Shown: piece by piece, positions 1-17,350 of the stretch
Layout of the letters: every line of letters starts with the position of its first letter
How positions within the stretch are numbered: position 1 is the first letter of the stretch
NCBI GenBank assembly: GCA_035574235.1
Contig: DATLZA010000008.1
Coordinates: forward strand, 1-34,617
DNA length: 34,617 nucleotides
Direction of reading: 5' to 3'
Origin: Planctomycetota bacterium
GTDB lineage: Bacteria; Planctomycetota; MHYJ01; JACPRB01
The notes under the pieces: generated by a model
What the model was told of the DNA's origin: nothing
Seen by the model: the letters and a program-made list of their open reading frames with translations, nothing else
The model's database searches: none
Position numbers and translations under genes: made by a program

Positions 1-212
1 CGCCCGCCCGCCGACAAAAACACCGCATCGATCCCGCGCCGCAAAAGCTCCCTCCGCGCCCCCGACGTGAGCTCCACCTGCCCCATCACCACCACCAGCC
101 CCAGCTCCGCAAACGCCACCCTCCGCGCTTCCCGACCTCCCACCGACAGAACCAGCGCGTCCCCCTGCACCGAAATCTCAGCGCCCTGCTCGCTCACCAC
201 CAGCGTCCGCAT
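1..212 (-). CDS. cas1: Cas1 integrase, N-terminal part (cut by left window edge)
   Basis: Only about 70 residues are present. They read as the beta-rich N-terminal domain of Cas1, the metal-dependent integrase that inserts new spacers. Visible landmarks are the opening MRTLVVSEQGAEI, the segment VVVMGQVELTSGARRELL, and RRGIDAVFLSAGG, which match the family pattern 'G-x-V-x-L-T ... L-x-x-x-G-I-x-V-x-F-L'. The start is the ATG at 212, because GGAGG sits at 219-223 with a 6-base spacer. It overlaps the end of the upstream primase-polymerase gene by 35 bases, so it belongs to the same operon. There is no reverse transcriptase or Cas6 fusion at this N-terminus. The catalytic C-terminal domain, and probably cas2 and the CRISPR array, lie beyond the left edge. 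Identification is from pattern only. Confidence 0.88.
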   Translation of the reverse strand, partial: MRTLVVSEQGAEISVQGDALVLSVGGREARRVAFAELGLVVVMGQVELTSGARRELLRRGIDAVFLSAGG

Positions 213-3227: not shown

Positions 3228-4288
3228 ATCCGGCGTACCTGAAACATTTTGAGATACTCTGCGACCAGGGCGGTCTGAGCCTCACCCTGCGCCGTCGTTT
3301 CAACCCGGAGGGGCAGAACTTCGCCGCTGCGCTCGTAGCGCACGAAGATGTGTCCTCGCTCGGCGTCGGCAAGGCGTACCCGGGCGCCCCGGCCCGCTTC
3401 CCCATCGAACCGCACATAGCGGACGCAGTCGATCGAGCAGAGCCAGCGCACAAAATTCTCCCAGCCGGCCGGTCTTTCATGCGCGACGCCGGAGAGCCCG
3501 TTTTTCTCGGCCGGCGAACGAGGATCGGCCTGGGGCCACACCACGCGGGGACGGCGAGGATGGAGCACAGCATGACAGAGGAGGCTTCCGGCCACGGTGA
3601 GGTAGGTGTTTCCGTCCTCGGCCGGGGCCGTCAGAAAACGTAGCTCGGGATTTCCCTTGAGCCATTCCTCGACTTTCTCCGTGGGCCGGGGCTCCTCGTC
3701 GATCCACTCGAAGAACTTGCGATTCCGAAGGACGATTTCCTCATTCCATTGAAGAGGCAGACGCGGAATCCGAACGAGCTCGTGGTGCCGCTCGTGGAGG
3801 TACACGACTTCCACGCCGGCCAAGGCTCCGAGGAGGGTAAGGAAAGCCGATTCCGGCTTATAGCCGCCGGTCGCCGCCAGAACGATCTGCGCCCCTTTGT
3901 CCTCCGATTCCCTGATTCTTCGAAGAAGAATGTCGATCATGCTTTTGAGACCTCGGGAGAACGCTTGCGGCTCCGCGGTGAGGCCGGTGATGATCTGAAC
4001 CTCGCCCCTGATCCCCAGGTTTTCGTAATGATGCTGGAGAGCCTGGGCGCAGAAGCATCCTTCGGGCGTTTCGGAGCAGAGAAAAAAGAGGGCATCATCG
4101 GTGCCGACTTCGAGCCGGTGGAGAGTATGGATCTCAGCGGACGCCGCTGCCGGATCCGCCCTGCGGAGCCAATGGATGACGTCGGCCTCCGGAGGCAAAT
4201 CCTGACCGTGTTTCCATCCGCCCCAGGGACGGTCATCGCGGTTGGTTAGAAGCGAAGTCCCTACGGTTACAAGAATGTGACGCGGCAC
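3224..4288 (-). CDS. CARF-domain CRISPR accessory protein, APE2256 type, with C-terminal RelE-like candidate effector
   Basis: The opening PRHILVTVGTSLLTN and the motif VLAATGGYKPESAFLTLLGAL (TGGYK at 140-144) identify a CARF domain of the APE2256 class (Pfam Cas_APE2256), which binds cyclic oligoadenylate. I place the start at a GTG (4288), because GGGAGG lies 7 bases upstream and the CARF strand begins at once; this gives 354 residues. Residues about 205-245 look like a winged-helix linker. Residues 255-354 include GHIFVRYERSGEVLPLRVETTAQGEAQT, which resembles RelE-type mRNA-interferase domains found on some CARF proteins; this last point is tentative. No HEPN R-x4-6-H and no PD-D/ExK is evident. 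It follows cmr6 by 13 bases and overlaps the next CARF gene (ATGA). A ring nuclease is the main alternative. Confidence 0.8.
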   Translation of the reverse strand: MPRHILVTVGTSLLTNRDDRPWGGWKHGQDLPPEADVIHWLRRADPAAASAEIHTLHRLEVGTDDALFFLCSETPEGCFCAQALQHHYENLGIRGEVQIITGLTAEPQAFSRGLKSMIDILLRRIRESEDKGAQIVLAATGGYKPESAFLTLLGALAGVEVVYLHERHHELVRIPRLPLQWNEEIVLRNRKFFEWIDEEPRPTEKVEEWLKGNPELRFLTAPAEDGNTYLTVAGSLLCHAVLHPRRPRVVWPQADPRSPAEKNGLSGVAHERPAGWENFVRWLCSIDCVRYVRFDGEAGRGARVRLADAERGHIFVRYERSGEVLPLRVETTAQGEAQTALVAEYLKMFQVRRI

Positions 4289-4301
4289 GGCTTTTCCTCC
4301 C

Positions 4302-5495
4302 TTAGGACGTTCCCTTCTTTCCCGCTGCCGGGGCGGAAGGGCCCGGCGGGACCCACCGAAAGTTGATATTCCCTCCTTCCTGGCTCGATACCGAGTCGAC
4401 CAGAACGAAAACGCGCTGTCCGGCAGTCCAGTCCCCCGGCGCATCCTTCGAATTGACGATGAAGCCGATGCGGCCGCTCGCCAGGTGACATACCTTCCAG
4501 GTCCCCTTCTTGGGATTCTTCTCACGCAGTTCGACCTCGACTCGATCGCCCCTTTTGAGGGACGGCGCCGGAAGGGAAGGGGCGGACTCACGGCGCGGCG
4601 CGGCAGCTGCAGTTTCCGCCGTTCCGATTTGAAACACTCCGTAGCCGGCCGTTTTCTTGGCGCCCAGACCTCGATCTTTGAGCGCTTCCCCGAGCGCCGA
4701 CCTCAGCCGTGCGCCCAGGGATTCCGCCGGCTCCAGGTCGGACCCGCGGGCCGGAAGAACCGCGGCGCGAAACCTCCACTCCACTCTCGCCGGTACGGAA
4801 AGAAAGGGAACGGGATTCGGCCCTTGGTCATCGGTGGACCATCTCTTTCCCTCGGGGTAGTACTCCTTGTAGTGGGGCGTCAGGTAGTCGACCTCGAGCC
4901 GGCAGGTCAGAGGAAAAGCGTCGAAGAAGATCACTCGGCCGGCCTTCTCCTGCGTCCCGAAAAGCGTTTCGGCCAACTTCTTGTCCTGAGGATGAACAAC
5001 CGCCCGGACCGCCCCCTTGATTCCGCTTCCCGGAAGGTACGGAACCCCGTAGAGGGGGTGGAACATGAACCCCGTTTCGAGCGCATGCGGCTCCCCCAGG
5101 CGCGAAACCAGCCGGGAGGTCAGAACCGCCGATTCCGAGACCACCGCGGCGCCGAGCGACCTGAGGGATTCAAGCGCCGCATCAAGGCGCCGGTGGATCT
5201 CGCGCAGAAGCGACTGGTCGGCAGCTCCGCTTTGCTCGGCCATCTGCCTCAAGAGATTGCCTTTGCTGTTTTTCAGGGTTCTGTCCGGCGGCCGCAGAGG
5301 CATCCAGCGCTGAAAAAGAAGCCCCAGGTTGGCCGGCGGACCGGCGCGCCGAACGACCTCCTCCGCCCACCTTTCCACCGGCAGCTGCTGAACCCGGAGG
5401 GCATCCGCGGCGTCCCGGGGGACGCAGAGGGCAAGCAACACCGGCGTCTCTTTCGGACGCTCTCTTGGGGCGGGGTCGAAGGATCCATTTCTCAC
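4302..5495 (-). CDS. cmr6: Cmr6 (Cas7-like backbone subunit) with a C-terminal OB-fold-like extension
   Basis: Cmr6 caps the end of the type III-B crRNA-bound filament. The RAMP signature LPGSGIKGAVRAVV is at 154-167 and the late glycine motif GLGAKKTAGYGVF at 276-288. At 397 residues it is longer than usual. Residues about 289-312 are an Ala/Pro-rich linker, and 312-382 form a small beta-rich domain with alternating hydrophobics (GDRVEVELREK, GRIGFIVN, GQRVFVLVDSV) that resembles an S1/TRAM/OB RNA-binding fold. The catalytic core looks intact, so this is an added module and not a frameshift. The gene starts in an ATGA overlap with cmr5 and is followed after 13 bases by a CARF gene with its own ribosome site. 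The Cmr6 call is firm; the OB call is an inference. Confidence 0.9.
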   Translation of the reverse strand: MRNGSFDPAPRERPKETPVLLALCVPRDAADALRVQQLPVERWAEEVVRRAGPPANLGLLFQRWMPLRPPDRTLKNSKGNLLRQMAEQSGAADQSLLREIHRRLDAALESLRSLGAAVVSESAVLTSRLVSRLGEPHALETGFMFHPLYGVPYLPGSGIKGAVRAVVHPQDKKLAETLFGTQEKAGRVIFFDAFPLTCRLEVDYLTPHYKEYYPEGKRWSTDDQGPNPVPFLSVPARVEWRFRAAVLPARGSDLEPAESLGARLRSALGEALKDRGLGAKKTAGYGVFQIGTAETAAAAPRRESAPSLPAPSLKRGDRVEVELREKNPKKGTWKVCHLASGRIGFIVNSKDAPGDWTAGQRVFVLVDSVSSQEGGNINFRWVPPGPSAPAAGKKGTS

Positions 5496-5896
5496 GGGGC
5501 CCCTCCTTTCCCCCGCGCCTCCCCGCCCTCCTTCACCCTGGCCCGCACCGCGCGCTTGAGCCAGGCCGCATAGGCCAGCGCCTCCTGGGTGGCCGCGCGA
5601 TAGATGAAGGAATCCTCGTCCGCCAGCCGTCCGAGAAGGTCATCATTTTTCGACTTCCAGCCGATCTGATCGGCACACCCCTGATGGAGCCACTCCTGCA
5701 AGACCTTGTAGGTCCACGTGTGAGGGTCGTCGCTTTTGGCCCTGAGAAACGCAAGCGTCGGCCCCAGCCCCGAGGCCATGATCATGCTGGGGAGCGACTC
5801 GACGGTGCTTTTATGTTCCTTCGTCAGGGGCGTCGTCGCCACCTTTCCAAGGACATGCTGAGCCCGACGCTGATCCATCGTCTTCTCGCCGCTCAT
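5492..5896 (-). CDS. cmr5: Cmr5 (Cas11, small subunit)
   Basis: This is the small helical subunit of the Cmr complex that lines the filament and helps hold target RNA. The 134 residues match the family pattern: MDQRRAQHVLGKV at the start, KSTVESLPSMIMASGLGPTLAFLRAK in the centre, and a helical end rich in Ala and Leu. The start is the ATG at 5896, six residues before the Met of MDQRR, because GGAGG stands 6 bases upstream and the ATG overlaps the cmr4 stop as ATGA. It is next to cmr4 and cmr6, as in most III-B operons. Longer starts would run into cmr4 and add sequence with no family resemblance. Nothing is missing for a protein of this family. Confidence 0.92.
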   Translation of the reverse strand: MSGEKTMDQRRAQHVLGKVATTPLTKEHKSTVESLPSMIMASGLGPTLAFLRAKSDDPHTWTYKVLQEWLHQGCADQIGWKSKNDDLLGRLADEDSFIYRAATQEALAYAAWLKRAVRARVKEGGEARGKGGAP

Positions 5897-6807
5897 CGGG
5901 CGCCTCCTTTCTCCATGAACTTCAGCCGCACGATTCCGCGTCCCGTCGTGGCGTCCGCCCCCGTCTGCATCCGCGCCCCGTCCAGGTCGGTCCTCAGTTT
6001 GTTGAGAATCGCGGCGGCATCCCCCAGACCGTTCGTCTTGCCCCTTCCCCCGAAGGGGTCCGCCGCCGCCAGCGGCACATAGAAGAGCGAATCGCAGGGG
6101 ACGAACTCGGCCTGAAAGAGAGCGCCGTCGGCAACCGTACCTTTCGTGTCGTCGATCCTCGTATGTGCCTCGACGACGGTCGAGGTCCGGACGAAGTACT
6201 GGAAGTCCGTTTCCGGAAGGAGCACGAGGTGGCTCGTGATCCGTTCCGCCCAGTACCCCTCGGCGACGGCGTTCTTCCGAAGCCACTCGGCCACGGCGTC
6301 CAGGGCGGAATCGGGTTTCGCCGCGAAGCGGCTTTCTTCCAGAATCACGGCCGCCGGGGAGCTCTCGAGCACCAGGCTGCTTTTCGTGGTGACCCGGGCT
6401 CCGCTTTTCTCCGGCTCCGTCAGCTTCCAGTCCCGGACCTCGGCGTCCCTCGCCAGCCGCTCCAGGGCCGGCCGGCTTGTGGCGTACGCGAACGTTCCGC
6501 GCAGGCTCCGGATGGGGAACAGGATCAGCTTCGCGTCCCCGAACGCCACGGCGCCGGCGAATTTATCCGCCTCCGCTCCCGTCTCGGGTCCGAAGATCGT
6601 TTCCAGGTGCGCTCGGCGGTCCCTGTCCGATTCCTTCCGATAGAGAAGGTCGCGCACACTTCCTTTGATGCCGGCCCCCTGGCCCATGGGGTAACCGGTA
6701 TGGCGCTCCCTCTGAATGGGCAGATCGATCGCGCCGATGCTGGACCCCGTTCCCCAGTGCACCGGCGTTTCCGCATAAAGAAAAAGCAGCGCCTCACGCT
6801 TGAACAT
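5893..6807 (-). CDS. cmr4: Cmr4 (Cas7 backbone subunit, target-RNA nuclease)
   Basis: Cmr4 is the repeated backbone protein that cuts target RNA every six bases. From the ATG at 6807 (304 residues) the N-terminus carries HWGTGSSIGAIDLPIQRERH, in which D28 matches the catalytic aspartate of known Cmr4 proteins, followed by the RAMP loop GQGAGIKGSVRDLL. The C-terminal glycine motif ADATTGRGIVRLKF is also present. The start is chosen because GGAGG lies 8 bases upstream and the family begins right before the first beta strand; an ATG 30 bases earlier is less likely. It overlaps the end of cmr3 by 14 bases and the start of cmr5 by ATGA. With D28 kept, target RNA cleavage should be active. Confidence 0.94.
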   Translation of the reverse strand: MFKREALLFLYAETPVHWGTGSSIGAIDLPIQRERHTGYPMGQGAGIKGSVRDLLYRKESDRDRRAHLETIFGPETGAEADKFAGAVAFGDAKLILFPIRSLRGTFAYATSRPALERLARDAEVRDWKLTEPEKSGARVTTKSSLVLESSPAAVILEESRFAAKPDSALDAVAEWLRKNAVAEGYWAERITSHLVLLPETDFQYFVRTSTVVEAHTRIDDTKGTVADGALFQAEFVPCDSLFYVPLAAADPFGGRGKTNGLGDAAAILNKLRTDLDGARMQTGADATTGRGIVRLKFMEKGGAR

Positions 6808-7921
6808 AATCCCAACCTCCGACCAACACGATTCCAAATCCTTCCTGAGCTCCGACGTCCGAAACCGATCGGGCGTGGTACTTCTGAACGGGATCGCCCC
6901 GCTCCAGCTCGAAGTAGTACACCGCTCCAGCGGGAACCGCGAGACGCAGGGGTTTGGCGCTCCTGGCCGCGATATCCCAGCCGGACACAGGGACCATCGT
7001 CGGCAAACGCACGCCGACGAGCCGGGCGCGCACGTCCCCGTCGTCCAGAACCCAGCCGTTTTCTCTCTTGCAGATCCGGGAAGGCTTCCACCCTGCTGTC
7101 TGCCCCTCCATGAAGATGGCCGGCGTCACGAACGTCCAGGCGAACCGGCCCTCCCGCATGAAGCCGGCGGGCCAGCGACCTGCCGTGGATTTCTCCCACC
7201 GTGCCATGCGCCCCTCTCCGCCGAGGCGAAGAATCCCCTTATCCCGAAGAGGCGCGACACCCTCGCCTTCGACCGCCACCGCAAGACGAACCCGCTTTTC
7301 CTCGTTCAGGCGGACCATCCGGAGCGAATAGAGCATTCCCTCTCTTACGGTGCGCGTGCCGCCGAGAGCGATTCCAAAGCGCCTTTCGGTTCCCCAGAGC
7401 GCCTCCGCACAGACCGGCTCCCCCGGAATCCCGCCGGAAAGCCAGGCCTCCATGTCCCGTGCGGTCAGATAGACCGGCCCTTCGAGCTTCTCCCCCGTTC
7501 CCCGGCCCGCCTCGATTTTCCAAAGCGAGCGGAGCCCCTCCCTGGCCAGCGACGAAGAGAACGGAAGCCGATCCCGGCCCAGCGGAGCCCACCGCCAGAC
7601 CCTCTCCTGCGAAAATTCGAGATCCGCAGGCGCCGGGAAAAGAAGATCGTTCCCGCGTCGCAGGAACGGCCCTTTGAAGCTCACGCGGAAAGCCGCCTCT
7701 CCCGGCCGGCCCCACACCTCGGCGGCCGGCCCTTCCAGCCGCCTGGCGGAGAAGTCCGCTCCGTACGAGGCCATCGCGGCCGTCCGGAGCGCCCCCGCCG
7801 TCACCGACGGCAGCGGCGGGAAGATTCCCTCCGCGTAATTTTCGCTCCCGGCTCCGAAAGGACGGGCGTCGCGGAAGAAAAGCACATCCACCGGCTCCAG
7901 ATCCACCCATCGTTCGCTCAT
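6794..7921 (-). CDS. cmr3: Cmr3 (Cas5-like subunit)
   Basis: Cmr3 is the Cas5-type subunit that grips the 5' handle of the crRNA and contacts Cas10. The 375 residues begin with the family's typical WVDLEPVDVLFFRDARPF, then GIFPPLPSVTAGALRTA, and end with GFGIVLVGGWDYVQA, the late glycine-rich segment of the group. Length is normal. The start codon overlaps the cas10 stop as ATGA, so its translation is probably tied to that of Cas10, which suits two proteins that form a 1:1 head. No catalytic role is expected. Confidence 0.92.
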   Translation of the reverse strand: MSERWVDLEPVDVLFFRDARPFGAGSENYAEGIFPPLPSVTAGALRTAAMASYGADFSARRLEGPAAEVWGRPGEAAFRVSFKGPFLRRGNDLLFPAPADLEFSQERVWRWAPLGRDRLPFSSSLAREGLRSLWKIEAGRGTGEKLEGPVYLTARDMEAWLSGGIPGEPVCAEALWGTERRFGIALGGTRTVREGMLYSLRMVRLNEEKRVRLAVAVEGEGVAPLRDKGILRLGGEGRMARWEKSTAGRWPAGFMREGRFAWTFVTPAIFMEGQTAGWKPSRICKRENGWVLDDGDVRARLVGVRLPTMVPVSGWDIAARSAKPLRLAVPAGAVYYFELERGDPVQKYHARSVSDVGAQEGFGIVLVGGWDYVQA

Positions 7922-10671
7922 TCGTCACGCTCCCGGGCGAGGAACTCCGCCGCCGCAACGAGACGGACCAACTGGGCGCTCGGCCAAAAGTATTCCTCCG
8001 GATAGCCCGACGGGTGCCGGGGCTCCTTGAAGCGTTTCAGGACCGCCTCGAGCGCCGCGGAAACTTCCTGCGCGATCCGCTCCTTCTCTTGGCAAAGGAT
8101 CTTTCCCTGCGCCTCCTCGGAGGCGCCCCCCGCCATGTAAAGATGCCTCCGCAGAAGCCACAGGATCTGCTCCTGGCGGGCCTCCGGCTCTCTTTCGAGA
8201 AGGGGAAGCGACTCCTCCAGGTGGCCCACAAACTTCCGTGAAAGGAAGAACCGGGCGCCGGGAAGCTCCTGGCTGGGTCTTCCACGGAAGACGCCGGCCA
8301 CGAGGTCCATGACGTCGAGCGCCGCCCAGTGGAAGCAGAGAACCTCCCGATCCCCCGAACGCTTCAGGACCGCCAGGCCCACCGCGTTCTTCTCCGGGGC
8401 GGACTTGGCGAGCTCCTCGCACTCCCGCGCCGCCTCGAGGGCCAGGCGCATCGGGCTCTTCGCATGCGCCACGGCGATTCCGGCGCTCAGGGTCGCCTGG
8501 GGGCCCAGAAGCCGGTAAAGCTCATGGCGGCCTCTCTCGAAGCGCGCGAAGCCGTTCCGCATACGTGCCCCTGGGATTCCGATCTCGCGATCCCCTTCTT
8601 CACGCTCTCCGGCGAACGCATAGCGGATCATGCGCGCGATCCTCGGAAGGGGCTCCAGCGGAAGAAGCGCCAGCACATCGTCTCCGCCGGCATAGACCAG
8701 CGCCCCCGGCCCTGCCTTTTCGACGACGTGGGGGATCACATGGCGGGCGAAGTCCCGAAGCGCACGGCTGAGAGCCGCCTGGTACGCGGGGGCGTACGGA
8801 CGCTTCACGTCTCCGAACGGCAGGTGGCCCATCACCTTCTGGTGAACCACCTCATCGTAGGAGGGGCAGCGTTCCCCCGAGAGCCACTTGCCCATTCCGT
8901 CGCCGTCGGCGACCAGAACCGCGTAATAGCGGCGCGGTTCGACAGGAAGGTGAAGCTCCTGCAGAGCCCCCCGCAGCTCGCGCAAGGCCTCTACAAGGTC
9001 CCTGCTTCCCTCCTGGCCGTCCGCCGACACGGCATCGAGATACAGCCAGCGGGCGTCCGCGTAAGCCAGATCCTCTAGGATTTGCCAGGAACGCAGCTTC
9101 TCGTGCGTATGGTCGGGGATCCAGTATCGCTCCTTATCTTTGTCCACCTGCGACACGGCGGACCGCACCTTTTCCAGCGCGCTCCGCAGCCTGTCCGTGC
9201 CGGCCGCACGGCTTTCGAGGGTTTCCGCCAGACGCTCGAACCAGGGCGCCGCCGCCAGCGTGGAGGTGGAAGGGAATCCCTGACCGTGTACCCGGCGGTC
9301 GCGGCCGAGCCGACGTTTGACCGTACACACCCCGCACAGCCGATCGACCCGATCCTCGTCCCTTGGATCTTCCCAGACCGCCGAACGCAGGCCGCAGAGA
9401 TGGCAACGGTGCCTCCCTTCCTCCTCCTCCACCGCCCGCACCCTAGAGGCCTTGACCGAATCGAGCGAGAGACGCGCCAGGTCTACGAGGCTTCCGTACG
9501 CCGCCCCCGAATTCAGGAACCGAAAAGCCGCCGATTCCTCCTTGATCTGCTTCAGAAAGGCCGACTCCTTACGCGTCCAGTTCTGAACTTTCCGCCACCA
9601 GGACAGAAGCTCCTCTTTGCCCTTTCCCTCCTTGTCCGTGAAAAGACGCTTCCAGGGGACGGCGCTCCAGTACGTCTCGATCGCCGACAGGAGCTGAGCC
9701 CTGCCCTGCTCCTTGAGTTCCGCGGCGTACTTTTTCGCTTCTCCTTCGAGAAACTCCTTGACGCCCCCTTCCGCCGCCGCCGCGAGCTTCTCCACCTTCT
9801 CGAGAGGGACGACCGCCAGGAACTGGTTCGGCAGCGAAGGAATCCGAAACGCTTCGTCCTCCGGTTCGCAGTCCTTCACTCCCTCTTTCGCGAGCCAGCG
9901 GTCCACTTGCGGGTGTCCCCACACGTCGGGGAAGATGACGGCGTCCGGACCCAGCTCGGAGGCCACCGCCAGGAGCGCCCGGGCCAGGAGCTCGGACAGG
10001 AAAACCGATCCCGCCCAGAGGTCCGCGCTTTTCCGGGCCGCCGCGATCAACGACTGCACGGGTCCCAGAGCGAAGAAAAAGAGGGCAGGATCGTCCCCTG
10101 CGCCCACCAGCGCCGAGGTCAGGCGGGCATGCTCCCAGATCGAGTGATCCGGAATGCGGCTGTCCGCGGGAAGGAGGCTCCAGAGAAGTCCCAGTTCTTC
10201 CTTCCGCCCCCCCGAGTGAAACCGCCCGTCCATGAGGTACCGAGGCAGGAGGCGCCAGAGCGCGAGATAGCGCATCCAAAGGTTCGAATACTCCTTCTCG
10301 ATATGTCCGACGGCTTCCCGTACGGAGGCGGACACCGTTTCCCAGTCGGTGGAAATGAGCGTGTCCTTCCGGCAATCGTGCGGAGCCAGGTCATACGTGC
10401 GGCCGGACAAGGGATGGGTGAGCTGGGGATTCTCGCGCCAGCCGACCGCGTACTTCTTGCGATCTTCAAGAGGAAACCGGTCCGCGCCGGCGGCCATGCG
10501 GTCCGCCTGCCGGACCGCCTCGGGAATTTGGGGCTCGAGGCCCGCGGCCGTCAGGAGCTCTTTCGCCACGTCTTCATGCGGCGCCGCAAACAGGATCCCT
10601 GCCTTTTCCGGAGGATCGTGCAGAAGCGCCGCGATTTTGAGCCGGAGAATACGCTCGTCGGTTATGGCCAT
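7918..10671 (-). CDS. cmr2: Cas10 / Cmr2, signature subunit with HD domain and GGDD cyclase palm
   Basis: This is the large subunit of the type III-B complex (917 residues). The N-terminal HD-like domain shows LHDPPEKA (H18, D19), a second His at 32 (PHED), and DHSIWEHARLTSAL (H175, H181). A zinc knuckle follows at C423-x2-C426 ... C446-x2-C449. The first palm has VADGDGMGKWL (588-597), and the second palm has VYAGGDDVLALL with GGDD at 662-665. Once target RNA binds, such proteins make cyclic oligoadenylate from ATP at GGDD, and the HD domain cuts single-stranded DNA. Both sites keep their key residues. The two CARF effectors further down the operon fit the cyclase function. GGAGG lies 9 bases before the ATG. 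The gene overlaps cmr1 by 10 bases and cmr3 by ATGA. Confidence 0.96.
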   Translation of the reverse strand: MAITDERILRLKIAALLHDPPEKAGILFAAPHEDVAKELLTAAGLEPQIPEAVRQADRMAAGADRFPLEDRKKYAVGWRENPQLTHPLSGRTYDLAPHDCRKDTLISTDWETVSASVREAVGHIEKEYSNLWMRYLALWRLLPRYLMDGRFHSGGRKEELGLLWSLLPADSRIPDHSIWEHARLTSALVGAGDDPALFFFALGPVQSLIAAARKSADLWAGSVFLSELLARALLAVASELGPDAVIFPDVWGHPQVDRWLAKEGVKDCEPEDEAFRIPSLPNQFLAVVPLEKVEKLAAAAEGGVKEFLEGEAKKYAAELKEQGRAQLLSAIETYWSAVPWKRLFTDKEGKGKEELLSWWRKVQNWTRKESAFLKQIKEESAAFRFLNSGAAYGSLVDLARLSLDSVKASRVRAVEEEEGRHRCHLCGLRSAVWEDPRDEDRVDRLCGVCTVKRRLGRDRRVHGQGFPSTSTLAAAPWFERLAETLESRAAGTDRLRSALEKVRSAVSQVDKDKERYWIPDHTHEKLRSWQILEDLAYADARWLYLDAVSADGQEGSRDLVEALRELRGALQELHLPVEPRRYYAVLVADGDGMGKWLSGERCPSYDEVVHQKVMGHLPFGDVKRPYAPAYQAALSRALRDFARHVIPHVVEKAGPGALVYAGGDDVLALLPLEPLPRIARMIRYAFAGEREEGDREIGIPGARMRNGFARFERGRHELYRLLGPQATLSAGIAVAHAKSPMRLALEAARECEELAKSAPEKNAVGLAVLKRSGDREVLCFHWAALDVMDLVAGVFRGRPSQELPGARFFLSRKFVGHLEESLPLLEREPEARQEQILWLLRRHLYMAGGASEEAQGKILCQEKERIAQEVSAALEAVLKRFKEPRHPSGYPEEYFWPSAQLVRLVAAAEFLARERDE

Positions 10672-11630
10672 GCGACTACGCCTCCGAAGTTCCTGGCGAA
10701 GCGATCGACTTCATTCCAGTTGCGCAGATCCATGGGAATCACCGATGGGAATGGGCTTTTGAGGACCGTGAGCACTTCCAGGACTCCCCTGTCTCCCCGC
10801 AGGATCCGAAAATGAGCAGGGCTGGCCCAGCGCACGTCCCTCCCGCCGATGGTGGGATGTCCCGCGCGGGGTTTGAGATACGGAAGCCCCCAACTTGGCG
10901 ATTTATAGCCCCTGAGGGCGATCATGATGTCCCTCCGTGCATTCTCCGCATCGGCGGCACTGCCTCGGCGCACCCGGATCGATGCGCACGCGTGGGGAGC
11001 CGGGCAGAGCATCGGAAACGGCGCTTCCCCGGAATGAGCAGGCTGGCCCATGTTGCGCTGGAGATGTTGGATGGTGCCTCTGATCCACTGGGCGAGTCGC
11101 TCCGGGTCCTGAGGGAGCGGGTTGCGGTACCGTTCCTCGAGGTCCTCCGGGGCTTCCAGCACCTGCACGTCGAAGGATCCCGCTCCCCGACGCGAGCGCT
11201 GTCCCAGCCCGCCCAGCACCGTGGCTAGGCGCAGAATGCAGATGGCTTCTCGGAGACTCTCGCGGGAGCCGTCTATTCGAACACGGTACGTCCGATTCGG
11301 AGAAAGCGCCGTCGAGGGTGACTTCCGCTCCGGACTGTGAGGAAGCAACGGATGTTGCCGTGTTTCCTCAGGCGTGACGCCGTCGACCCGAAGCCGAACG
11401 CGCGAGGCCCACTCGGTTTTTCCCCAGAGTTCGCTTTCCTTCCTGAAAAGCTCCTTCGGGTTGCCGAAAAAAGGACCGTAGACCGCCCGCGTCCAGAACC
11501 GGAGCACGCCGCGGAGCGAGGGAATGCGGAACTCCGCTTCCCCGCGGGGTTCCCGCTCCGCTTTCCCGGGGGGTTCCCGGTGAATGAACGCGGGGGTGAC
11601 CGTCTTGAATTCAATCGTTGCTTTTCCCAT
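10662..11630 (-). CDS. cmr1: Cmr1 (Cas7-like subunit)
   Basis: Cmr1 sits at the 3' end of the crRNA in the Cmr complex. The 322 residues open with IEFKTVTPAFIHR and the family motif FRIPSLRGVLRFWTRAVYG, in which S-x-R-G-x-L-R-F-W is diagnostic. The glycine/arginine loop LGGLGQRSRRGAGSFDV is the second family mark. Length fits a single-domain-pair Cmr1. The start at 11630 lies 20 bases inside the end of cas6, with GAGGG upstream, and the stop overlaps cas10 by 10 bases. No catalytic residues are expected. Confidence 0.92.
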   Translation of the reverse strand: MGKATIEFKTVTPAFIHREPPGKAEREPRGEAEFRIPSLRGVLRFWTRAVYGPFFGNPKELFRKESELWGKTEWASRVRLRVDGVTPEETRQHPLLPHSPERKSPSTALSPNRTYRVRIDGSRESLREAICILRLATVLGGLGQRSRRGAGSFDVQVLEAPEDLEERYRNPLPQDPERLAQWIRGTIQHLQRNMGQPAHSGEAPFPMLCPAPHACASIRVRRGSAADAENARRDIMIALRGYKSPSWGLPYLKPRAGHPTIGGRDVRWASPAHFRILRGDRGVLEVLTVLKSPFPSVIPMDLRNWNEVDRFARNFGGVVAWP

Positions 11631-12579
11631 CGACCGCCCTCAGCTCATATCGCCCAAGGCCGAACGAAGCGTTCTTGCCCAGATGAAGCCACTGGCCCGC
11701 CACCAACCAGGGGCGCCAGGCCGAAAGCGCCCCCCGCAGTCGGAGGGTCCCGATCACTCCTCCGAGGGACATGCGCGTCTTCTGCCGCCCGGAATAGCGC
11801 GGCGCTTCCTGCCAGCGCCGGTCCTCCCAGCGGTACTCCAGCGTTTCCGCTTCCCGCGCCAGGTGCCGCGCCGGCTCCTCCACGGAGCCTCCTCCGTAGA
11901 AGGCCGTCATCGCCCCCACCCGCCGCAGAAGGGCGCGCAGCACCGCCGGCCCGTCCGGCTCCTGCTGAAGCCGCCCTCCCGACGTGATCCGCGCCGGCGT
12001 CCGGAACACCAGCCGCGCCTCGCCGTCGAACTTGGGAACCCGGCGCTCCAGCTCCGAAAGCGGCAGCGGCCGCGCCCGCTCGGGAAGTCGCTCGGGCCGA
12101 AGGACGATCCGCCCCGCCCCCTGCTCTTCCTCCACCCTCTCGATGGCCACCGGCACCCGCTCCCGACCGAACCCCGTCCGTCCGCCCCGCTCCAGCGCCG
12201 CCACGACGTGCCCCGCCATCCGCGCCGCCCAACCGATCAGCGTCACCCCGACCGTCCAGAAGTCCCCCGAACGAAGCTCAGTCCCTGCACTCTCCCAGCG
12301 CAGGACATAGGGCGGCGGAATCGTCCGCTCCCCCTCCAGAACCCCGATCCCCTGAGGCCGCACCGGCTCCAGGACGCACGGATAGGCGCATCCGGCGCGC
12401 AGGACGCAGCGCAGGCAATCCCGGTGTTCCGCCACGCAGACAAGCTCCTTCAGAGCCCGCCCCAGAACGCCGCGGATCATCGAGCCCGGAAACTCGGGGA
12501 TCCGGAAATCCCCTTCGAGCCGAAATACGATGCGCAGCGGCAGAACTTCGATCGGAGGCCACGAGACTCCGAAATCCAT
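11611..12579 (-). CDS. cas6: Cas6-type pre-crRNA endoribonuclease (PF10040 group)
   Basis: This RAMP protein cuts the CRISPR transcript within its repeats to give crRNAs. The N-terminal ferredoxin-like half has PLRIVFRLEGDFRIPEFPGSMIRGVLGRALKEL, followed by a cysteine cluster (HRDCLRCVLRAGCAYPCV) common in this subgroup. The C-terminal half ends in the glycine-rich RNA-binding loop GKNASFGLGRYEL. I start the gene at the ATG at 12579 (322 residues), where the first recognisable strand follows closely and GGGAGG lies about 10 bases upstream. A start at 12687 would add sequence without family features and would sit inside the predicted promoter. It is the first gene of the leftward operon and overlaps cmr1 by 20 bases. 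The catalytic histidine cannot be assigned with certainty. Confidence 0.88.
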   Translation of the reverse strand: MDFGVSWPPIEVLPLRIVFRLEGDFRIPEFPGSMIRGVLGRALKELVCVAEHRDCLRCVLRAGCAYPCVLEPVRPQGIGVLEGERTIPPPYVLRWESAGTELRSGDFWTVGVTLIGWAARMAGHVVAALERGGRTGFGRERVPVAIERVEEEQGAGRIVLRPERLPERARPLPLSELERRVPKFDGEARLVFRTPARITSGGRLQQEPDGPAVLRALLRRVGAMTAFYGGGSVEEPARHLAREAETLEYRWEDRRWQEAPRYSGRQKTRMSLGGVIGTLRLRGALSAWRPWLVAGQWLHLGKNASFGLGRYELRAVDGKSND

Positions 12580-12659
12580 GACCGGACACCCTCCCGTCCG
12601 CCGTCCTTCCCGGACGACCGTCCCACACCCCCATGGCCTATGTGCCAAGGGGCGAAACT

Positions 12660-12687
12660 TTTTTAACACACGACGGCGCGTTGTCAA
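12660..12687 (-). promoter_or_regulatory. Sigma70-type promoter of the CRISPR operon
   Basis: On the minus strand a perfect -35 TTGACA (12682-12687) is followed by 16 bases and TAAAAA (12660-12665). TGT directly precedes the -10, giving an extended -10. The start of transcription would fall near 12653, about 74 bases before the cas6 ATG. It lies in the 216-base space between the sigma54-type regulator and cas6, so the operon can be expressed without the regulator. This is a pattern-only prediction. Confidence 0.6.
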
Positions 12688-12767
12688 GCCGATGCACGAC
12701 TTCTTCTCGGGGTAGACCCGCGCGTCTCACGCCGACGGGGCACGCCTCCACGCTCCGGGAACCGGCG

Positions 12768-12780
12768 CCGGAAGTTCCGG
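12768..12780. repeat. Short perfect dyad after the regulator gene
   Basis: CCGGAAGTTCCGG is a 6-base inverted repeat around one base, starting a short way past the regulator's stop codon on the minus strand. It overlaps CCGGCGCCGG. No T-run follows, so it is not a standard intrinsic terminator. It may be a weak transcription-end hairpin or a protein site in front of the CRISPR operon. Confidence 0.35.
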
Positions 12781-12795
12781 TGGAAGGCCCGCGGC

Positions 12796-14550
12796 TCAGG
12801 GCGCCGGGCGTCGGCGCGCGCGGAAGAGATCGGAGTCGAGCGACTTCACCCCGAAGTGCTCTCGGAACCAATTCTCCCGGAAGTCCGGGTCCGACCGCCT
12901 CGGGCCCGCCTCCACCTCGTACTGAGCCCTGGCCAGAAGAATGAACCTCTCGAGATCCTTCGGAGGAAGATCCGCCTTCACCCGATCATAGGTCGTGCGA
13001 CGGTGCAGAACCTCCCGCAGTTTCAACCGAGCCCGCTCCCACTCGTCCTCCGCGCCGTTCGCGCGATCCCGCGCTTCGTCCACGAGGCGCGCCAGTTCCG
13101 TTTCCGACCATTTTCCAGAGCGGACGCCGTCGACGACCCAGCGAAGAAGGACGTTCCTCAGCTGGCGGACGTTTCCAGGCCAGCAACAGTCCTCCAGGAG
13201 CCGCACCTCCGTCTCCCTGAAGGGGCGGAAGGGGACGCCCTCCTCCGCGCAGATTTCCCGCAGCAGGTCCTCCGCCAGCAGGGGCAGATCCTCCCGACGC
13301 TCGCCGAGGGAAGGAAGCCGGATCGTCAGAGAGGCGATCCGATAATAGAGGTCCTCTCGAAACCGCTTCTCGCGCACCTCCGTCCACAAGTCCCGGTTGG
13401 TCCCCACGATGAAACGGGCCTTCGTATTCCTCGTTTTGCTTTCCCCGAGGCGGGAGTATTCCTTCCGTTCGACCAGGGTCAACAAGGCCGCCTGGGCGGT
13501 CGGGCTGAGGCTGTCGATCTCGTCGATGAAGAGCGTCCCTTCCCGGGCCGCTTCGACGGCGCCGGCCCGAGACCGTTCGGCCCCCGTGTAGGCACCCTCT
13601 TCCGCCCCGAAAAGCTCCGAGTGCAACAAATGATCCGGCTTGGCGGCGCACTGATAGATCACGAAAGGTTTGGCCTTTCTCGGTCCGTTTTCATGAATCG
13701 CCTGAGCCAGAACCCCCTTGCCCGTCCCGGTGGGTCCCTCGAGGAGCACGCAATGACCCACCGTCGCGTAGCCCCGGGCCCGCTCCACCGCCTCCTTCAT
13801 CTTCGGATTCCGGGTGCGGATCCTCCCGAACGTCACGAGGTCCTTCTCATCCCGCGGGGGGCGATACAGCCGCTCCGTCTCGAGCGCGGCGAGGTTGGGG
13901 ACATGGACGCGCAGCTCGCGGAGAAACTCGGACGCTTCCTCGGCACTCGAGATCCTCGTCCCGATCGCGTCCCGCATCCTCCGCGTAACCCCGGAGAAAT
14001 CCATCAGCGGAAGCTCGACCAGGACGTACCGGCTCAGTTCAAAGTGGAGCGCCGGCGAGCGCTGCTCCTCGTCCGTGAGGCCCGTCGGGAGAACGTGGAC
14101 CACGCGCCGCACCCCGAAAAGCTGGCCCGCGATCGCCGCCACCGCGCTTTCCGTCTTGCGCCCGCCGGCCAGGCACACCTCCACCTCCAGGCCGGCGTCG
14201 CCGGCCTGGACGATGCGGAAGGCGAGCTCGCCGAGGAGCGCCTCGTGGGCTCCTGGATGGTCAAAGTCGTTGAATGGAAAAACGCCGCATCGAACGTCCA
14301 CGGGCCCGGCAGGGTCCGCCTTTATGCCTGGAACTCGACAGGGATAGCGCGTCTGAAGAATTTCCATATCCCCCGAACGTCGGCCGCCCTCGAATTCGTC
14401 GAGAATCCGTCTTCGGGACTCCGTAACGCGGGGACTCGACGTGCAAAGAAGGATCACCTCCCGAATCGCCCGCCGCTCTTCGAAAAAATACTTGTCGAGC
14501 GCCTCGGTTACGACCGCAGGAGTGACCCCGACCGTGCAGATCAGACGCAT
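12796..14550 (-). CDS. CARF-sigma54 AAA+ transcription activator (RtcR-like architecture)
   Basis: This 584-residue protein joins a nucleotide-sensing CARF domain to a sigma54 activator. Residues 1-195 are CARF of the NE0113 kind: ICTVGVTPAVVTEAL at 4-18 and CLAGGRKTESAVAAIAG at 126-142. The AAA+ part has Walker A GPTGTGKG (272-279), the sigma54-contact loop GAYTGA (319-324), Walker B GTLFIDEID (338-346), the arginine-finger segment RFREDLYYR (396-404) and WPGNVRQLRN (457-466). All are intact, so it should hydrolyse ATP and open sigma54 promoters. The last ~100 residues show no clear Fis-type helix-turn-helix. RtcR, the known protein of this layout, governs RNA repair, but no rtcA/rtcB is seen here. 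Instead it sits directly upstream of a Cmr operon and downstream of a sigma54 promoter. Sensing of cyclic oligoadenylate or RNA ends is inferred. Confidence 0.88.
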   Translation of the reverse strand: MRLICTVGVTPAVVTEALDKYFFEERRAIREVILLCTSSPRVTESRRRILDEFEGGRRSGDMEILQTRYPCRVPGIKADPAGPVDVRCGVFPFNDFDHPGAHEALLGELAFRIVQAGDAGLEVEVCLAGGRKTESAVAAIAGQLFGVRRVVHVLPTGLTDEEQRSPALHFELSRYVLVELPLMDFSGVTRRMRDAIGTRISSAEEASEFLRELRVHVPNLAALETERLYRPPRDEKDLVTFGRIRTRNPKMKEAVERARGYATVGHCVLLEGPTGTGKGVLAQAIHENGPRKAKPFVIYQCAAKPDHLLHSELFGAEEGAYTGAERSRAGAVEAAREGTLFIDEIDSLSPTAQAALLTLVERKEYSRLGESKTRNTKARFIVGTNRDLWTEVREKRFREDLYYRIASLTIRLPSLGERREDLPLLAEDLLREICAEEGVPFRPFRETEVRLLEDCCWPGNVRQLRNVLLRWVVDGVRSGKWSETELARLVDEARDRANGAEDEWERARLKLREVLHRRTTYDRVKADLPPKDLERFILLARAQYEVEAGPRRSDPDFRENWFREHFGVKSLDSDLFRARRRPAP

Positions 14551-14632
14551 GTCCAGCCTTCCCCGTCCTCGGAATCGAGCAAACCATCCGGTTCATGCCG
14601 TTAAGAATACCCTGAGATGGGAGACCGGGGGA

Positions 14633-14671
14633 ACCCGGGGCGCCCGATAGCACTTCGGATGCACCCCGGGT
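14633..14671 (-). other. Strong hairpin in the leader of the CARF-sigma54 gene
   Basis: An 11-pair stem (14633-14643 with 14661-14671, one G-U pair) carries a 2-base bulge (14659-14660), then a 4-pair inner stem (CCGA with TCGG) and a 7-base loop (14648-14654). It lies about 85-120 bases before the regulator's ATG, inside the transcript expected from the sigma54 promoter. On the minus strand its 3' arm could also pair with the adjacent CCCGG, so two folds compete. No U-run follows, so it is not a simple terminator. Confidence 0.5.
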
Positions 14672-14702
14672 CCTGGCGGGGGGGCGGCCTTGCGTCCGCC
14701 CA

Positions 14703-14716
14703 GGTCGGATCCGACC
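14703..14716. repeat. Perfect 14-base palindrome in the leader
   Basis: GGTCGGATCCGACC reads the same on both strands. It lies between the small ORF and the strong hairpin, about 155 bases before the regulator's start codon. It could be an operator or an RNA stem. No partner copy was noticed nearby. Confidence 0.4.
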
Positions 14717-14767
14717 GTCCCGGCCTTGGAGAGAGCGGGTTCAACCACGGCTCTGTTCTCCTCGTAC

Positions 14768-14842
14768 CTACCTCCGAAACCTCTGGAATACGCACACGCG
14801 GTGATTCCCAATGTTTCCGCAGACCCCACGACGCGTAGCCAT
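14768..14842 (-). CDS. Candidate 24-residue basic peptide behind the sigma54 promoter
   Basis: This short ORF begins 28 bases after the predicted sigma54 transcription start. A perfect AGGAGG (14851-14856) stands 8 bases before its ATG, one of the best ribosome sites in the window. The product has six arginines and two cysteines, starts MATRRGVCGNIG and ends QRFRR. I do not recognise it. It could be a leader peptide that couples translation to folding of the downstream RNA, a small regulatory or toxic peptide, or the remnant of a gene once controlled by the regulator. The strong ribosome site argues for translation, but the short length and lack of known relatives keep confidence low. Confidence 0.4.
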   Translation of the reverse strand: MATRRGVCGNIGNHRVCVFQRFRR

Positions 14843-14880
14843 CGCTGAATCCTCCTAACTTTCAAACCCGAAGCGGGATA

Positions 14881-14896
14881 TGCAAGCCCTGTGCCA
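14881..14896 (-). promoter_or_regulatory. Sigma54 (RpoN) -24/-12 promoter
   Basis: On the minus strand TGGCACAGGGCTTGCA matches the sigma54 consensus TGGCAC-N5-TTGCW in every defined position, and the invariant GG and GC are exactly 10 bases apart. The transcription start would be near 14869. Transcription runs through the 24-codon ORF and leader into the CARF-sigma54 gene, so the activator probably controls its own expression. A chance match this good, in the only intergenic gap before a sigma54 activator, is unlikely. Confidence 0.8.
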
Positions 14897-15114
14897 CGTG
14901 AGCGCCCTCCTCGGGGAGCGCACGTCGGAGGCCGAACGTGCAAGAAAACCTTGCCGCTCGTTGGAAAATCTTGCAGAGGTGGGCTCAAACCGACAGGGGG
15001 TCCGCGGATCGCTTCGGCTATGATCCGGAGCGTCGCTTCTCCCCACCCGATGATCGTGACACCCGCGCAGGTCCCGCGCCGCCTGACCCGCCCGCTGCCG
15101 GTGCGACGCTCTTC
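14897..15114. other. Gene-free stretch upstream of the sigma54 promoter
   Basis: About 220 bases between the sigma54 promoter and the end of the recombinase gene. It holds the candidate activator sites at 14920-14954. Beyond these I see no gene, CRISPR repeat or recognisable RNA. Confidence 0.5.
14920..14941. promoter_or_regulatory. Inverted repeat, candidate activator-binding site (UAS)
   Basis: GCACGTCGG (14920-14928) and CCGAACGTGC (14932-14941) form an inverted repeat with one extra base, 38-59 bases upstream of the sigma54 -12 element. CACGTG at 14895-14900 repeats its core. Activators of sigma54 bind such dyads upstream of the promoter, though usually further away. A second small inverted repeat, GCAAG-N5-CTTGC (14940-14954), adjoins it. 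Confidence 0.4.
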
Positions 15115-16260
15115 TTATGACCGCCCAGCAGGCGGCTGATCCGGGCCGTCCGCCCCCCCCGTCTGCCGAGGAGCGACCAGGGGCGGCGGAGCGCCGCGCC
15201 GCAAGGCGTTCTGATCCGTGTACCAGCGAAGCAGCGTCCGGAGGGAGCCGGGCGCGTGCCCGATATAGGCCGCCAAGGCTTCCACCTCCATGTGCTGGGG
15301 GCCCGGCGCCGCATGCTCGCTGCAGAAGAAGTGGCGGAAGTCGTAAAGGGTAACACGGATCGATTCAGGAACCTTGCCCTTCTCGTCCGCAAGCGCACGC
15401 AGGAGCATGTGGTACACGCTCCGTTCCTTGTACACCGTGCCCGCAGCCGTGGCGAAGATGGGCAACGACTTGTCGGACATCTTGGCCACGCGCTCCTGCA
15501 GGATCTTGGCGGCGGTCGCGTTGAGTTCGATCACGCGTCTTGACCACTTGCTTTTCAGCTGGCGTCCTTCCCAAGGGACGATCGACAGGAGCTTTCCACG
15601 GAGATCCATCCCCCGCACGCCGAGCAGCTCGGAGGGGCGCATCCCGGTCTCGGCGAGCACCGCAGCGAAGTCGCCCAGCCAGGGGTGGCCCTGAAGTTTC
15701 TGGAGGACGGCCTGGATCTTTTCGGTGCTGGGGGCCTCCTTCGTCGTTTCCTCATCCTTCGGCTTCTCGATCGCCCGGCAGACGTTCCAATCGACGCCGC
15801 CCTTTCGAGCCGCGATCCAGCGGAGGAACGCGCGCACGCGGGCGAAATCGCTTCGAACCGTGAGAGCCGAACGGCCGTCGGAACGCTCATCGACCCAACG
15901 CTGAACGTGTTCGCGCGTCACCTCCCGGACGTCCCGTTCGGCACCGACCGATTCGACAAAGAGGCGGACGATGGGAAGCGCGCGCTCCGCGCCGGCAGGA
16001 CGCCGGTTCTTCTGGTACCACTCTTCGTACTCGTCGAACACTTTTCCCAAAGTGAGCGCCGAAGGGGGTTTGGGGATCCGAAAGGAAGGCACCCCTTGCT
16101 CGTCCTGCTGGAGGGCTCGACGCATCGCCTCCTCAGGATCCGAGGTGTCAAGCGAGCGCCGCACTTGGCGCCCGTGGGTACACTTTTCCACGTACCAGAC
16201 GGTGCCCCGCTTGACAATCCGGAGGCCTCTCCGTATCTTTACCGCTATGCGTTGGCCCAT
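15115..16260 (-). CDS. Tyrosine-type site-specific recombinase / integrase
   Basis: The protein has 381 residues from the ATG at 16260, which has GGAGG 8 bases upstream; an ATG 27 bases earlier is possible. The N-terminal half is a SAM-like core-binding domain (about 70-160). The catalytic half shows the first arginine in ETGMRPSELLG (R208), a lysine in LKSKWSRR, YDFRH (R309, with Tyr in place of the usual His of H-x-x-R), YIGHAPG (H335) and the nucleophile in LLRWYTD (Y347). The set appears complete for DNA cutting and rejoining by a 3'-phosphotyrosine. It reads away from a tRNA-Phe gene 84 bases off, the classic setting for integration at a tRNA. It may mark the right boundary of an island carrying the CRISPR block, or be an unrelated insertion. 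Confidence 0.88.
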   Translation of the reverse strand: MGQRIAVKIRRGLRIVKRGTVWYVEKCTHGRQVRRSLDTSDPEEAMRRALQQDEQGVPSFRIPKPPSALTLGKVFDEYEEWYQKNRRPAGAERALPIVRLFVESVGAERDVREVTREHVQRWVDERSDGRSALTVRSDFARVRAFLRWIAARKGGVDWNVCRAIEKPKDEETTKEAPSTEKIQAVLQKLQGHPWLGDFAAVLAETGMRPSELLGVRGMDLRGKLLSIVPWEGRQLKSKWSRRVIELNATAAKILQERVAKMSDKSLPIFATAAGTVYKERSVYHMLLRALADEKGKVPESIRVTLYDFRHFFCSEHAAPGPQHMEVEALAAYIGHAPGSLRTLLRWYTDQNALRRGAPPPLVAPRQTGGADGPDQPPAGRS

Positions 16261-16333
16261 CGTATCCCCCTCCGAAGGCGGGATCATTCTACCCCATTTA
16301 GGACACTCTAGGACACCAAAAATAAAACCGCGT

Positions 16334-16339
16334 TATAAC
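16334..16339 (+). promoter_or_regulatory. -10 box of the tRNA-Phe gene
   Basis: TATAAC ends 5 bases before the mature tRNA. The matching -35 (GGACAC, 16311-16316) is poor, and it lies within the 8-base direct repeat TAGGACAC (16299-16306 and 16309-16316). With normal spacing transcription would begin at or next to the first tRNA base. Confidence 0.35.
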
Positions 16340-16344
16340 GGCGT

Positions 16345-16420
16345 GGACAGGTAGCTCAGCTGGTAGAGCACTGCACTGAAAATGCAGGGGTCACCGGTTC
16401 AACTCCGGTCCTGTCCACCA
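16345..16420 (+). tRNA. tRNA-Phe (anticodon GAA)
   Basis: A full cloverleaf is visible: acceptor GGACAGG pairs with CCTGTCC, D stem GCTC with GAGC, anticodon stem CTGCA with TGCAG around loop CTGAAAA (anticodon GAA), a 5-base variable loop, and T stem ACCGG with CCGGT around TTCAACT. The discriminator is A and the CCA end is encoded. Total length is 76. It lies next to a tyrosine recombinase, on the side of the tRNA's 5' end, whereas most elements sit at the 3' end. Confidence 0.97.
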
Positions 16421-16450
16421 CCCTCCAGGACCTGAACCCCGCGCGATCCC

Positions 16451-17350
16451 CTACTTCTTCCTCCGCTTGTCGTCCAGGTTGCGGTTGAGCTCCGCAGGAT
16501 CAAGATCCACCGGCGCGCCCCCCTCGGGCACCTCCAGCCCCGCCGTCCAGAGAATCGCGTTCGTCACCAGGCGCCGCACGGAGACCTCGCCCCAATTGCG
16601 GTGCATGTGCCCGCCCGTGTAGCCGAACGCGCGCCCGCCCCCCGGACGCTCATACGCCCAGGCCACCACCTCCTCGCGCCCCGCATGCTCCCTGGAAGCG
16701 GCCGTCTGGCGCGTGGAATCCGGCGGCACGGCCTTGAGAATCGGCGTCACCCCCTTCATCCCCGGCACGAATTTGCAGAAGTAGTACCACTCATCGTGCA
16801 GCGCAAAGGGCGCCACGCCCCGCGTCACCGGATGCTCCGGAAGCGCCTTGAACTCCGCCGTCCACTTCGTCGCCAGCGAGGTCGAGTACCCGCCCAGGAT
16901 GTGGCCCCCCAGCCAGCCCAGAACCCGCTCGCCCGGACCGGCCGGAAAATTGAGCGCATAGTGCAACGCCACGAACCCCGCACCCCGGTCGATCTCCTTC
17001 TGGATCACTTCCATCCGGTTCCCCTGAACGAGCGGATGCCCTCCCCCGCCGTCGCAAAAAAAGACGATCGACCGGGCGTTCTCGAACACCTTCTCGTTCT
17101 TCGGCCACCCGTCCCGCACGAACACCGGCGCCGCCCCCGGAATCCGTTCGAGCATCTTCATGAGCAGCGCCAGGCCCGCGAAGTACTCGTGATCCCCCGG
17201 GCCGTGACTCATCCGCCCCGCCACGAGCACGATCTTGGCCCGCGACCCATCGGCCGGTTCGACCTCGATCGGCACCTTCGACTGATCGTACGGGTCGATG
17301 TCCTGCACCGCGGCCGCCCAAACCCCCAGCGCCAACGCGACGCGCAGCAT
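16451..17350 (-). CDS. Secreted ThuA-like domain protein
   Basis: A 299-residue protein with a signal peptide (MLRVALALGVWAAAVQ) and a ThuA-like, class-I-glutamine-amidotransferase-like fold: KIVLVAGRMSHGPGDHEYFAGL, SIVFFCDGGGGHPLV, GAGFVALHYALNF, and near the end RAFGYTGGHMHRNW. ThuA-like proteins are widespread in planctomycetes and are linked to sugar metabolism, but their reaction is mostly unknown. The start has GGGAGG 8 bases upstream. It stands alone between the tRNA and a divergent zinc-ribbon gene. The family call is firm; the function is open. Confidence 0.88.
   Translation of the reverse strand: MLRVALALGVWAAAVQDIDPYDQSKVPIEVEPADGSRAKIVLVAGRMSHGPGDHEYFAGLALLMKMLERIPGAAPVFVRDGWPKNEKVFENARSIVFFCDGGGGHPLVQGNRMEVIQKEIDRGAGFVALHYALNFPAGPGERVLGWLGGHILGGYSTSLATKWTAEFKALPEHPVTRGVAPFALHDEWYYFCKFVPGMKGVTPILKAVPPDSTRQTAASREHAGREEVVAWAYERPGGGRAFGYTGGHMHRNWGEVSVRRLVTNAILWTAGLEVPEGGAPVDLDPAELNRNLDDKRRKK

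Follow-up and report, generated by a model that had tools for sequence, protein, structure and literature searches.

Known effectors of cyclic oligoadenylate (cOA) mostly destroy nucleic acids, NAD or membranes, and a transcriptional output is represented by Csa3 and Calp. A locus in the genome of a Planctomycetota bacterium raises the question of whether Cas10 signalling can also be coupled to transcription by sigma54, as a preliminary description of its sequence had proposed. The window, by which we mean the whole stretch of 34,617 nucleotides analysed, makes up all of contig C8 in a genome of 4.06 Mb and 203 contigs. It contains a gene in which a CARF domain is fused to a sigma54 AAA+ domain, and this gene is the first of a type III-B CRISPR cluster, with cas6, the cmr genes and the effector genes downstream on the same strand. 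The features of the cluster are as follows.

12796–14550, minus strand: CARF-sigma54 fusion gene, 584 aa, ATG start; the protein consists of an NE0113-type CARF (about 1–180), a helical linker, a sigma54 AAA+ domain (about 246–473) and a C-terminal helical region (about 480–584)
11611–12687, minus strand: Cas6; translation probably begins downstream of the TTG at 12687
10662–11630, minus strand: Cmr1, by profile match
7918–10671, minus strand: Cmr2/Cas10, with an intact GGDD cyclase motif (YAGGDDVLAL) and an N-terminal HD-like LLHDPPEK
6794–7921, minus strand: Cmr3, by profile match
5893–6837, minus strand: RAMP protein in the Cmr4 position, assigned by RAMP match and position
5492–6286, minus strand: Cmr5, by profile match
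4302–5495, minus strand: Cmr6, by profile match
3224–4591, minus strand: CARF7-type protein (APE2256 / DUF2103-RelE-like), by profile match
1989–3227, minus strand: CARF1-HEPN RNase (TIGR02710, Csm6/Csx1-like), by profile match
178–1992, minus strand: CRISPR-associated primase-polymerase type A1 (CAPP), by profile match

Cas10/Cmr2 with GGDD was found together with Cmr1, 3, 4, 5 and 6, which identifies the system as type III-B, and the position of the fusion gene directly upstream of this operon, as described previously, was borne out by both gene content and order. When used as a query, the window Cmr4 matched the RAMP protein in the Cmr4 position at two further loci (L146 and L175). The Cmr5 reading frame has 264 codons and overlaps that of cmr4, and the Cmr5 match is confined to residues 138–249; its start is probably mis-set or its N-terminus unusual. 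Between the fusion gene and cas6 lies a gap of 108–217 bp, so the cas genes may have their own promoter too. No CRISPR array was found in bases 1–17,000 of the window; since the window spans its contig from end to end and the contig stops shortly past the CAPP gene, an array may lie off it. Upstream of the operon, a phage-type integrase gene adjoins a tRNA-Phe gene (15115–16420), and the operon may be located on an integrated genomic island. Elsewhere, the genome contains rpoN and 18 further matches to sigma54-activator AAA+ genes. RNA repair genes had been described as absent, which held, as regards rtcB, for the window and the related loci searched, but not for the organism, in which rtcB is present on another contig (C191).

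We then examined the domains of the fusion protein. Pfam searches detected Cas_NE0113 at residues 10–157 (E=5e-12, above the family cut-off), Sigma54_activat at residues 246–410 (E=4e-56) and AAA_lid_14 at residues 417–473. The AAA+ part retains every motif of a sigma54 enhancer-binding protein, including the Walker A (GPTGTGKG) and Walker B (TLFIDEID) motifs, the GAYTGA loop, the arginine fingers (FREDLYYR) and sensor II (WPGNVR); in our judgement, tyrosine for phenylalanine in the loop is a conservative swap. Among solved structures, Azotobacter NifA was the top sequence match to this part (43% identity in the structural alignment), and its predicted model (pLDDT 83) superposed on the AAA+ domains of LuxO and FlrC at 1.2–1.4 A. 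Domain and motif searches therefore agree with the architecture originally described, an NE0113-type CARF joined to a sigma54 AAA+ domain with GAYTGA. The word "complete" fits the AAA+ domain; it does not extend to an entire enhancer-binding protein, as the C-terminal region is without a recognised HTH. Pfam gave no HTH family match in the fusion, neither a Fis-type C-terminal HTH nor the winged HTH that accompanies CARF in Csa3. The last ~85 residues are helical in the predicted model, with pLDDT mostly 56–79; where the first HTH helix of a related fusion (L036) aligns, the window protein shows no sequence conservation. Given this C-terminal model and the lost first-helix sequence, we make no claim of site-specific DNA binding for the window protein. 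Some known sigma54 enhancer-binding proteins are without an HTH.

The CARF domain was next compared with sensors of known ligand class. When the domain was aligned to other CARFs, invariant positions were L3, G8, E16, T37, GGRK (129–132) and H152. The positive residue after strand 4 is K132, and most RtcR family members are without a positive residue there (Makarova et al. 2014, PMC4012209). Among solved structures, a profile built from four fusion CARFs matched Cad1 (2.5e-11) and, at about 7e-6, the ring nuclease Sso2081. Likewise, the AlphaFold model of residues 1–240 (pLDDT 78.8) matched cA4-bound Cad1 best (9.5e-9), followed by Crn1 ring nucleases (Sis0455 and Sso2081) and Cam1; TM-scores were moderate, about 0.5 by query and about 0.6–0.7 against isolated CARF chains, as expected from the added helical linker. 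The fusion scored 248.6 bits against the RtcR equivalog NF038308 (cut-off 650 bits), over the AAA+ part only, and Pfam found no RtcR-type N-terminal CARF (PF06956), assigning Cas_NE0113 instead. Against PADLOC-DB, the CARF part resembled Csx1/CARF3 models (1e-19) and the AAA+ part resembled RtcR_PspF2 over the AAA+ stretch only, and no model in that database couples an NE0113-like CARF with a sigma54 motor. The window protein thus combines a CARF profile with the GGRK pocket motif, the combination by which we recognise a candidate cOA sensor. By motif, profile and predicted fold, its CARF is grouped with cOA sensors and not with RtcR, which is in line with the ligand class originally proposed and excludes the RtcR type.

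To find relatives of the fusion, we ran a CARF-focused pattern once against 84,980 species genomes. This pattern was the third alignment; two earlier ones, run on viral contigs, served to tune it. The scan identified full-length fusions in Bacteroidetes (L036), WOR-3 (L037) and Calditrichaceae (L041), and profile searches of further genomes added Bacteroidota (L137), WOR-3 (L174) and Calditrichota (L173). Including the window, cas10 was a neighbour in five of the seven fusions across four phyla (the window, L036, L037, L041 and L174), and rtcB was beside none of the seven; a search for it that covered the window and 15 further stretches found none. A check for relatives beside cas10 or beside rtcB, which had been suggested at the outset, therefore came out in favour of cas10. 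In the type III-A loci L041 and L174, the fusion lies directly upstream of cas6-cas10-csm or cas10-csm. The L037 fusion is divergent from a cmr operon, with cas6-cas1-cas2 and an array following, and in L036 a single contig carries a cmr operon, RT-cas1, an array and a CARF-RelA/SpoT gene, with the fusion after them. The L173 locus stops at the contig edge, and no cas gene was found in L147, the locus of the L137 fusion.

A GAFTGA-type loop is intact in six of the seven fusions, and an HTH is present in L041, L173 and L174. The L174 fusion (9711–11198, minus strand), directly upstream of cas10, has a degenerate loop (GVATDV) with an intact HTH, and its ability to activate sigma54 may be lost. 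Three label changes are required to place the fusions on the CARF tree, and 0 of 200 bootstrap trees put them in one group, while deaminase and kinase fusions each form one group. On this tree, such CARFs probably acquired a sigma54 motor on more than one occasion, a single origin being less likely. The fusion is rare: a Pfam-family screen of 392 genomes of the window's phylum found the fusion, among the loci recovered, at the window locus only. In Spirochaetota, nearly all open frames with a CARF match had the length of deaminase fusions, and no frame had that of a sigma54 fusion. Single-protein scans of viral contigs and plasmids gave no relatives of the CARF part. Plasmid matches to the full protein proved to be sigma54 activators; two of these were examined in their gene context and were ordinary.

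Upstream of the fusion gene, we found a near-perfect sigma54 promoter facing the operon, which the preliminary description had overlooked. The features of this region are as follows.

14881–14897, minus strand: near-perfect sigma54 -24/-12 promoter GTGGCACAGGGCTTGCA, 330 bp upstream of the fusion start codon and facing the operon
14551–14880, minus strand: putative 5' leader of the operon
14842–14768 including the stop, minus strand: 24-codon leader ORF MATRRGVCGNIGNHRVCVFQRFRR, just downstream of the promoter, with a good Shine-Dalgarno (AGGAGG) in GTTAGGAGGATTCAGCG-ATG

The site lies within the 564 bp that separate the fusion gene from the integrase gene (region p=0.002). The pattern TGGCACNNNNNTTGCW has one match in the window (14881–14896, minus strand) against 0.01 expected from shuffles, and 14 matches genome-wide versus 1 for a reversed control pattern; from the genome density, about 0.001 matches would be expected in the stretch before the fusion gene. 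Pilin genes are classic sigma54 targets, and at least one of the 13 other genomic sites precedes a pilin-like gene. No sigma70-like promoter was reported in the 564-bp gap, and no inverted repeat or enhancer palindrome beyond chance was found upstream of the promoter (235 of 300 shuffles were as good).

What we observe is a set of domains whose motifs are intact, the order of the genes, cas10 beside the fusion in several phyla, a promoter match and rpoN, and from these we infer how the system might work. When the Cmr complex meets matching foreign RNA, Cas10 would make cOA, which would bind the CARF dimer and relieve a hold on the AAA+ domain. The freed AAA+ hexamer would then remodel RNA polymerase-sigma54 at target promoters, the likeliest local one being that at 14881–14897 before its own gene. 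Provided that the promoter is recognised and transcription continues into the cas genes, a first alarm would yield more sensor together with the downstream cas6-cmr-CARF effectors, i.e., positive feedback. Removal of the CARF leaves RtcR constitutively active, the full-length protein being repressed (PMC9650030); by analogy, repression lifted by the ligand is our default assumption for the fusion.

We assign a probability of roughly 0.55 to the combined reading, in which the fusion is a cOA-gated sigma54 activator and also activates its own operon. The gating itself is likely. Self-activation is the most economical choice of target because the sigma54 promoter is local, but we place it at about even odds, since a comparable promoter is absent from other fusions and the window protein has no HTH. 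It is further weakened by the 18 other sigma54-activator genes, which could use the same promoter. A comparable upstream promoter was absent from the fusions of L036, L037, L041, L173 and L174 (in L041, 270 bp of sequence is present there). A general rule of self-promoters for the fusions was tested and rejected, as other cas10-linked fusions are without a comparable site, and autoactivation is for the same reason not a conserved trait. The proposal that Cas10 signalling leads to sigma54 transcription thus gains support from the cas10 association, the CARF type, rpoN and the promoter, with the ligand, activation and targets suggested by these features. If true, a sensor hard-wired to sigma54 would tie the response to promoters that are normally fully off, the self-promoter would make it self-amplifying, and the recurrence of sigma54 activators beside cas10 would be explained.

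Other readings differ in what the protein controls and in what it senses. A cOA-gated activator might have its main targets elsewhere, in a host stress or dormancy regulon and not in its own operon. The 13 other perfect sigma54 sites in the genome, one of them before the pilin-like gene, fit such a regulon, as do the missing self-promoter of other cas10-linked fusions and the precedent of a CalpS-type global response. However, one of only 14 sites genome-wide lies directly before the fusion gene in the right orientation, where about 0.001 would be expected, and we regard this reading as rather unlikely. Still less probable is that the CARF senses a cue other than cOA, such as the kind of RNA ends or partner protein that control RtcR, with the CRISPR neighbourhood reflecting shared defence use. 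RtcR, the most familiar CARF-sigma54 protein, is indeed unresponsive to oligoadenylates and controlled by RtcAB and RNA ligands (PMC9650030), and rtcB exists elsewhere in the genome. Against this, the window CARF belongs to a different clade (Csx1/NE0113/CARF3 models in PADLOC and Pfam, not RtcR) with the cOA-type GGRK motif and fold kept, and adjacency to cas10 recurs whereas rtcB occurs in none of the loci searched.

The protein could also serve chiefly as a sink for the ligand or as a ring nuclease, or it could be losing its role as an activator. The missing HTH in the window protein and the GVATDV loop of L174 are compatible with decay, and the closest CARF folds include ring nucleases and Cad1, of which one PDB record is named ring nuclease and deaminase. 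Nevertheless, all AAA+ motifs for sigma54 remodelling are intact in the window protein, its 584-aa frame is kept by selection and the loop is preserved in all fusions but one, so that we consider this reading highly improbable.

Compared with known systems, the cOA-gated activator proposed here combines familiar parts. It shares CARF and sigma54 AAA+ domains with RtcR and the RtcR_PspF1/2 CARF-AAA-HTH family, and its AAA+ domain is closest to the RtcR_PspF2/RtcR models, but it has a CARF of another clade with GGRK, adjoins cas10 instead of rtcBA and has no recognised HTH. Csa3, which binds cA4 (PMC8699464, PMC8844856), and the NE0113 CARF-wHTH regulators are likewise CARF-controlled transcription factors linked to CRISPR; they use a winged HTH, in contrast to the ATP-driven sigma54 motor here, which needs a sigma54 promoter. 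In CalpL-CalpT-CalpS, a type III CRISPR signal also leads to sigma-factor-dependent transcription, although there SAVED-Lon proteolysis frees a separate sigma factor from CalpT, whereas here a single protein is both sensor and activator, and sigma54 is the sigma factor. Cad1, a CARF-adenosine deaminase that binds cA4/cA6, is the nearest solved relative of the window CARF by profile and fold but carries a deaminase as its effector domain. RtcR is thus a precedent for CARF-sigma54 proteins, Csa3 for transcription factors that bind cOA, and Calp for the release of a sigma factor triggered by cOA. Neither PADLOC-DB nor the open literature searched, which did not include the 2020 CARF survey, yielded a cOA-type CARF coupled to a sigma54 motor within a cas10 operon; the architecture of the fusion may nonetheless have been described earlier.

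We further extended the analysis to sigma54 sites at other type III or CARF loci that carry a sigma54 activator, where p values are descriptive because regions were chosen after a first locus-wide scan. Strong sites were detected before the type III operons of L039 (p=0.002) and L044 (p=0.002), and before the CARF-kinase operons of L043 (p=0.005) and L040 (p=0.010). Intergenic sites numbered 4 in 140 kb at CARF loci with a local sigma54 activator versus 4 in 485 kb at those without, a comparison too small and not blind, which is suggestive of an excess at the former. The same type III-sigma54 coupling appears to be built from other parts in L043 (CARF kinase and response regulator) and L039 (RtcR-like activator). 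Type III systems in several phyla may have been repeatedly wired to sigma54 through a fusion, a CARF kinase with a response regulator or an RtcR-like activator, with some operons, this one included, controlled by a sigma54 promoter that is otherwise off, so that the response would be amplified and all-or-none; we advance this generalisation only tentatively.

In L039 (8836–10951), an RtcR_PspF2-type CARF-sigma54 activator is divergent from a III-A operon with Cad1, which the promoter ATGGCACAAAAATTGCT faces. The Fibrobacter type III operon of L044 (3486–10325) contains cas6, Cad1, a short CARF-less sigma54 activator and cas10, and lies behind a perfect sigma54 promoter, TTGGCACGGTCTTTGCT. In the Planctomycetota loci L043 (8041–11020) and L040 (8389–11116), a CARF-histidine kinase is followed by a sigma54 response regulator; a near-perfect sigma54 promoter precedes, by ~70–150 bp, a conserved putative membrane protein of ~180 aa that matched no Pfam family, and the kinase comes next. 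A CARF-histidine kinase also occurs in L155 (WOR-3). In L036, a type III-B and RT-Cas1 locus, the CARF-sigma54 gene adjoins a gene (8065–9492, plus strand) joining an NE0113-type CARF to a RelA/SpoT domain (PF04607, 4.5e-17). The same combination was found, by sequence likeness only, in L059 (9869–11230) and L136, and its domains suggest an alarm-triggered (p)ppGpp-like synthetase effector.
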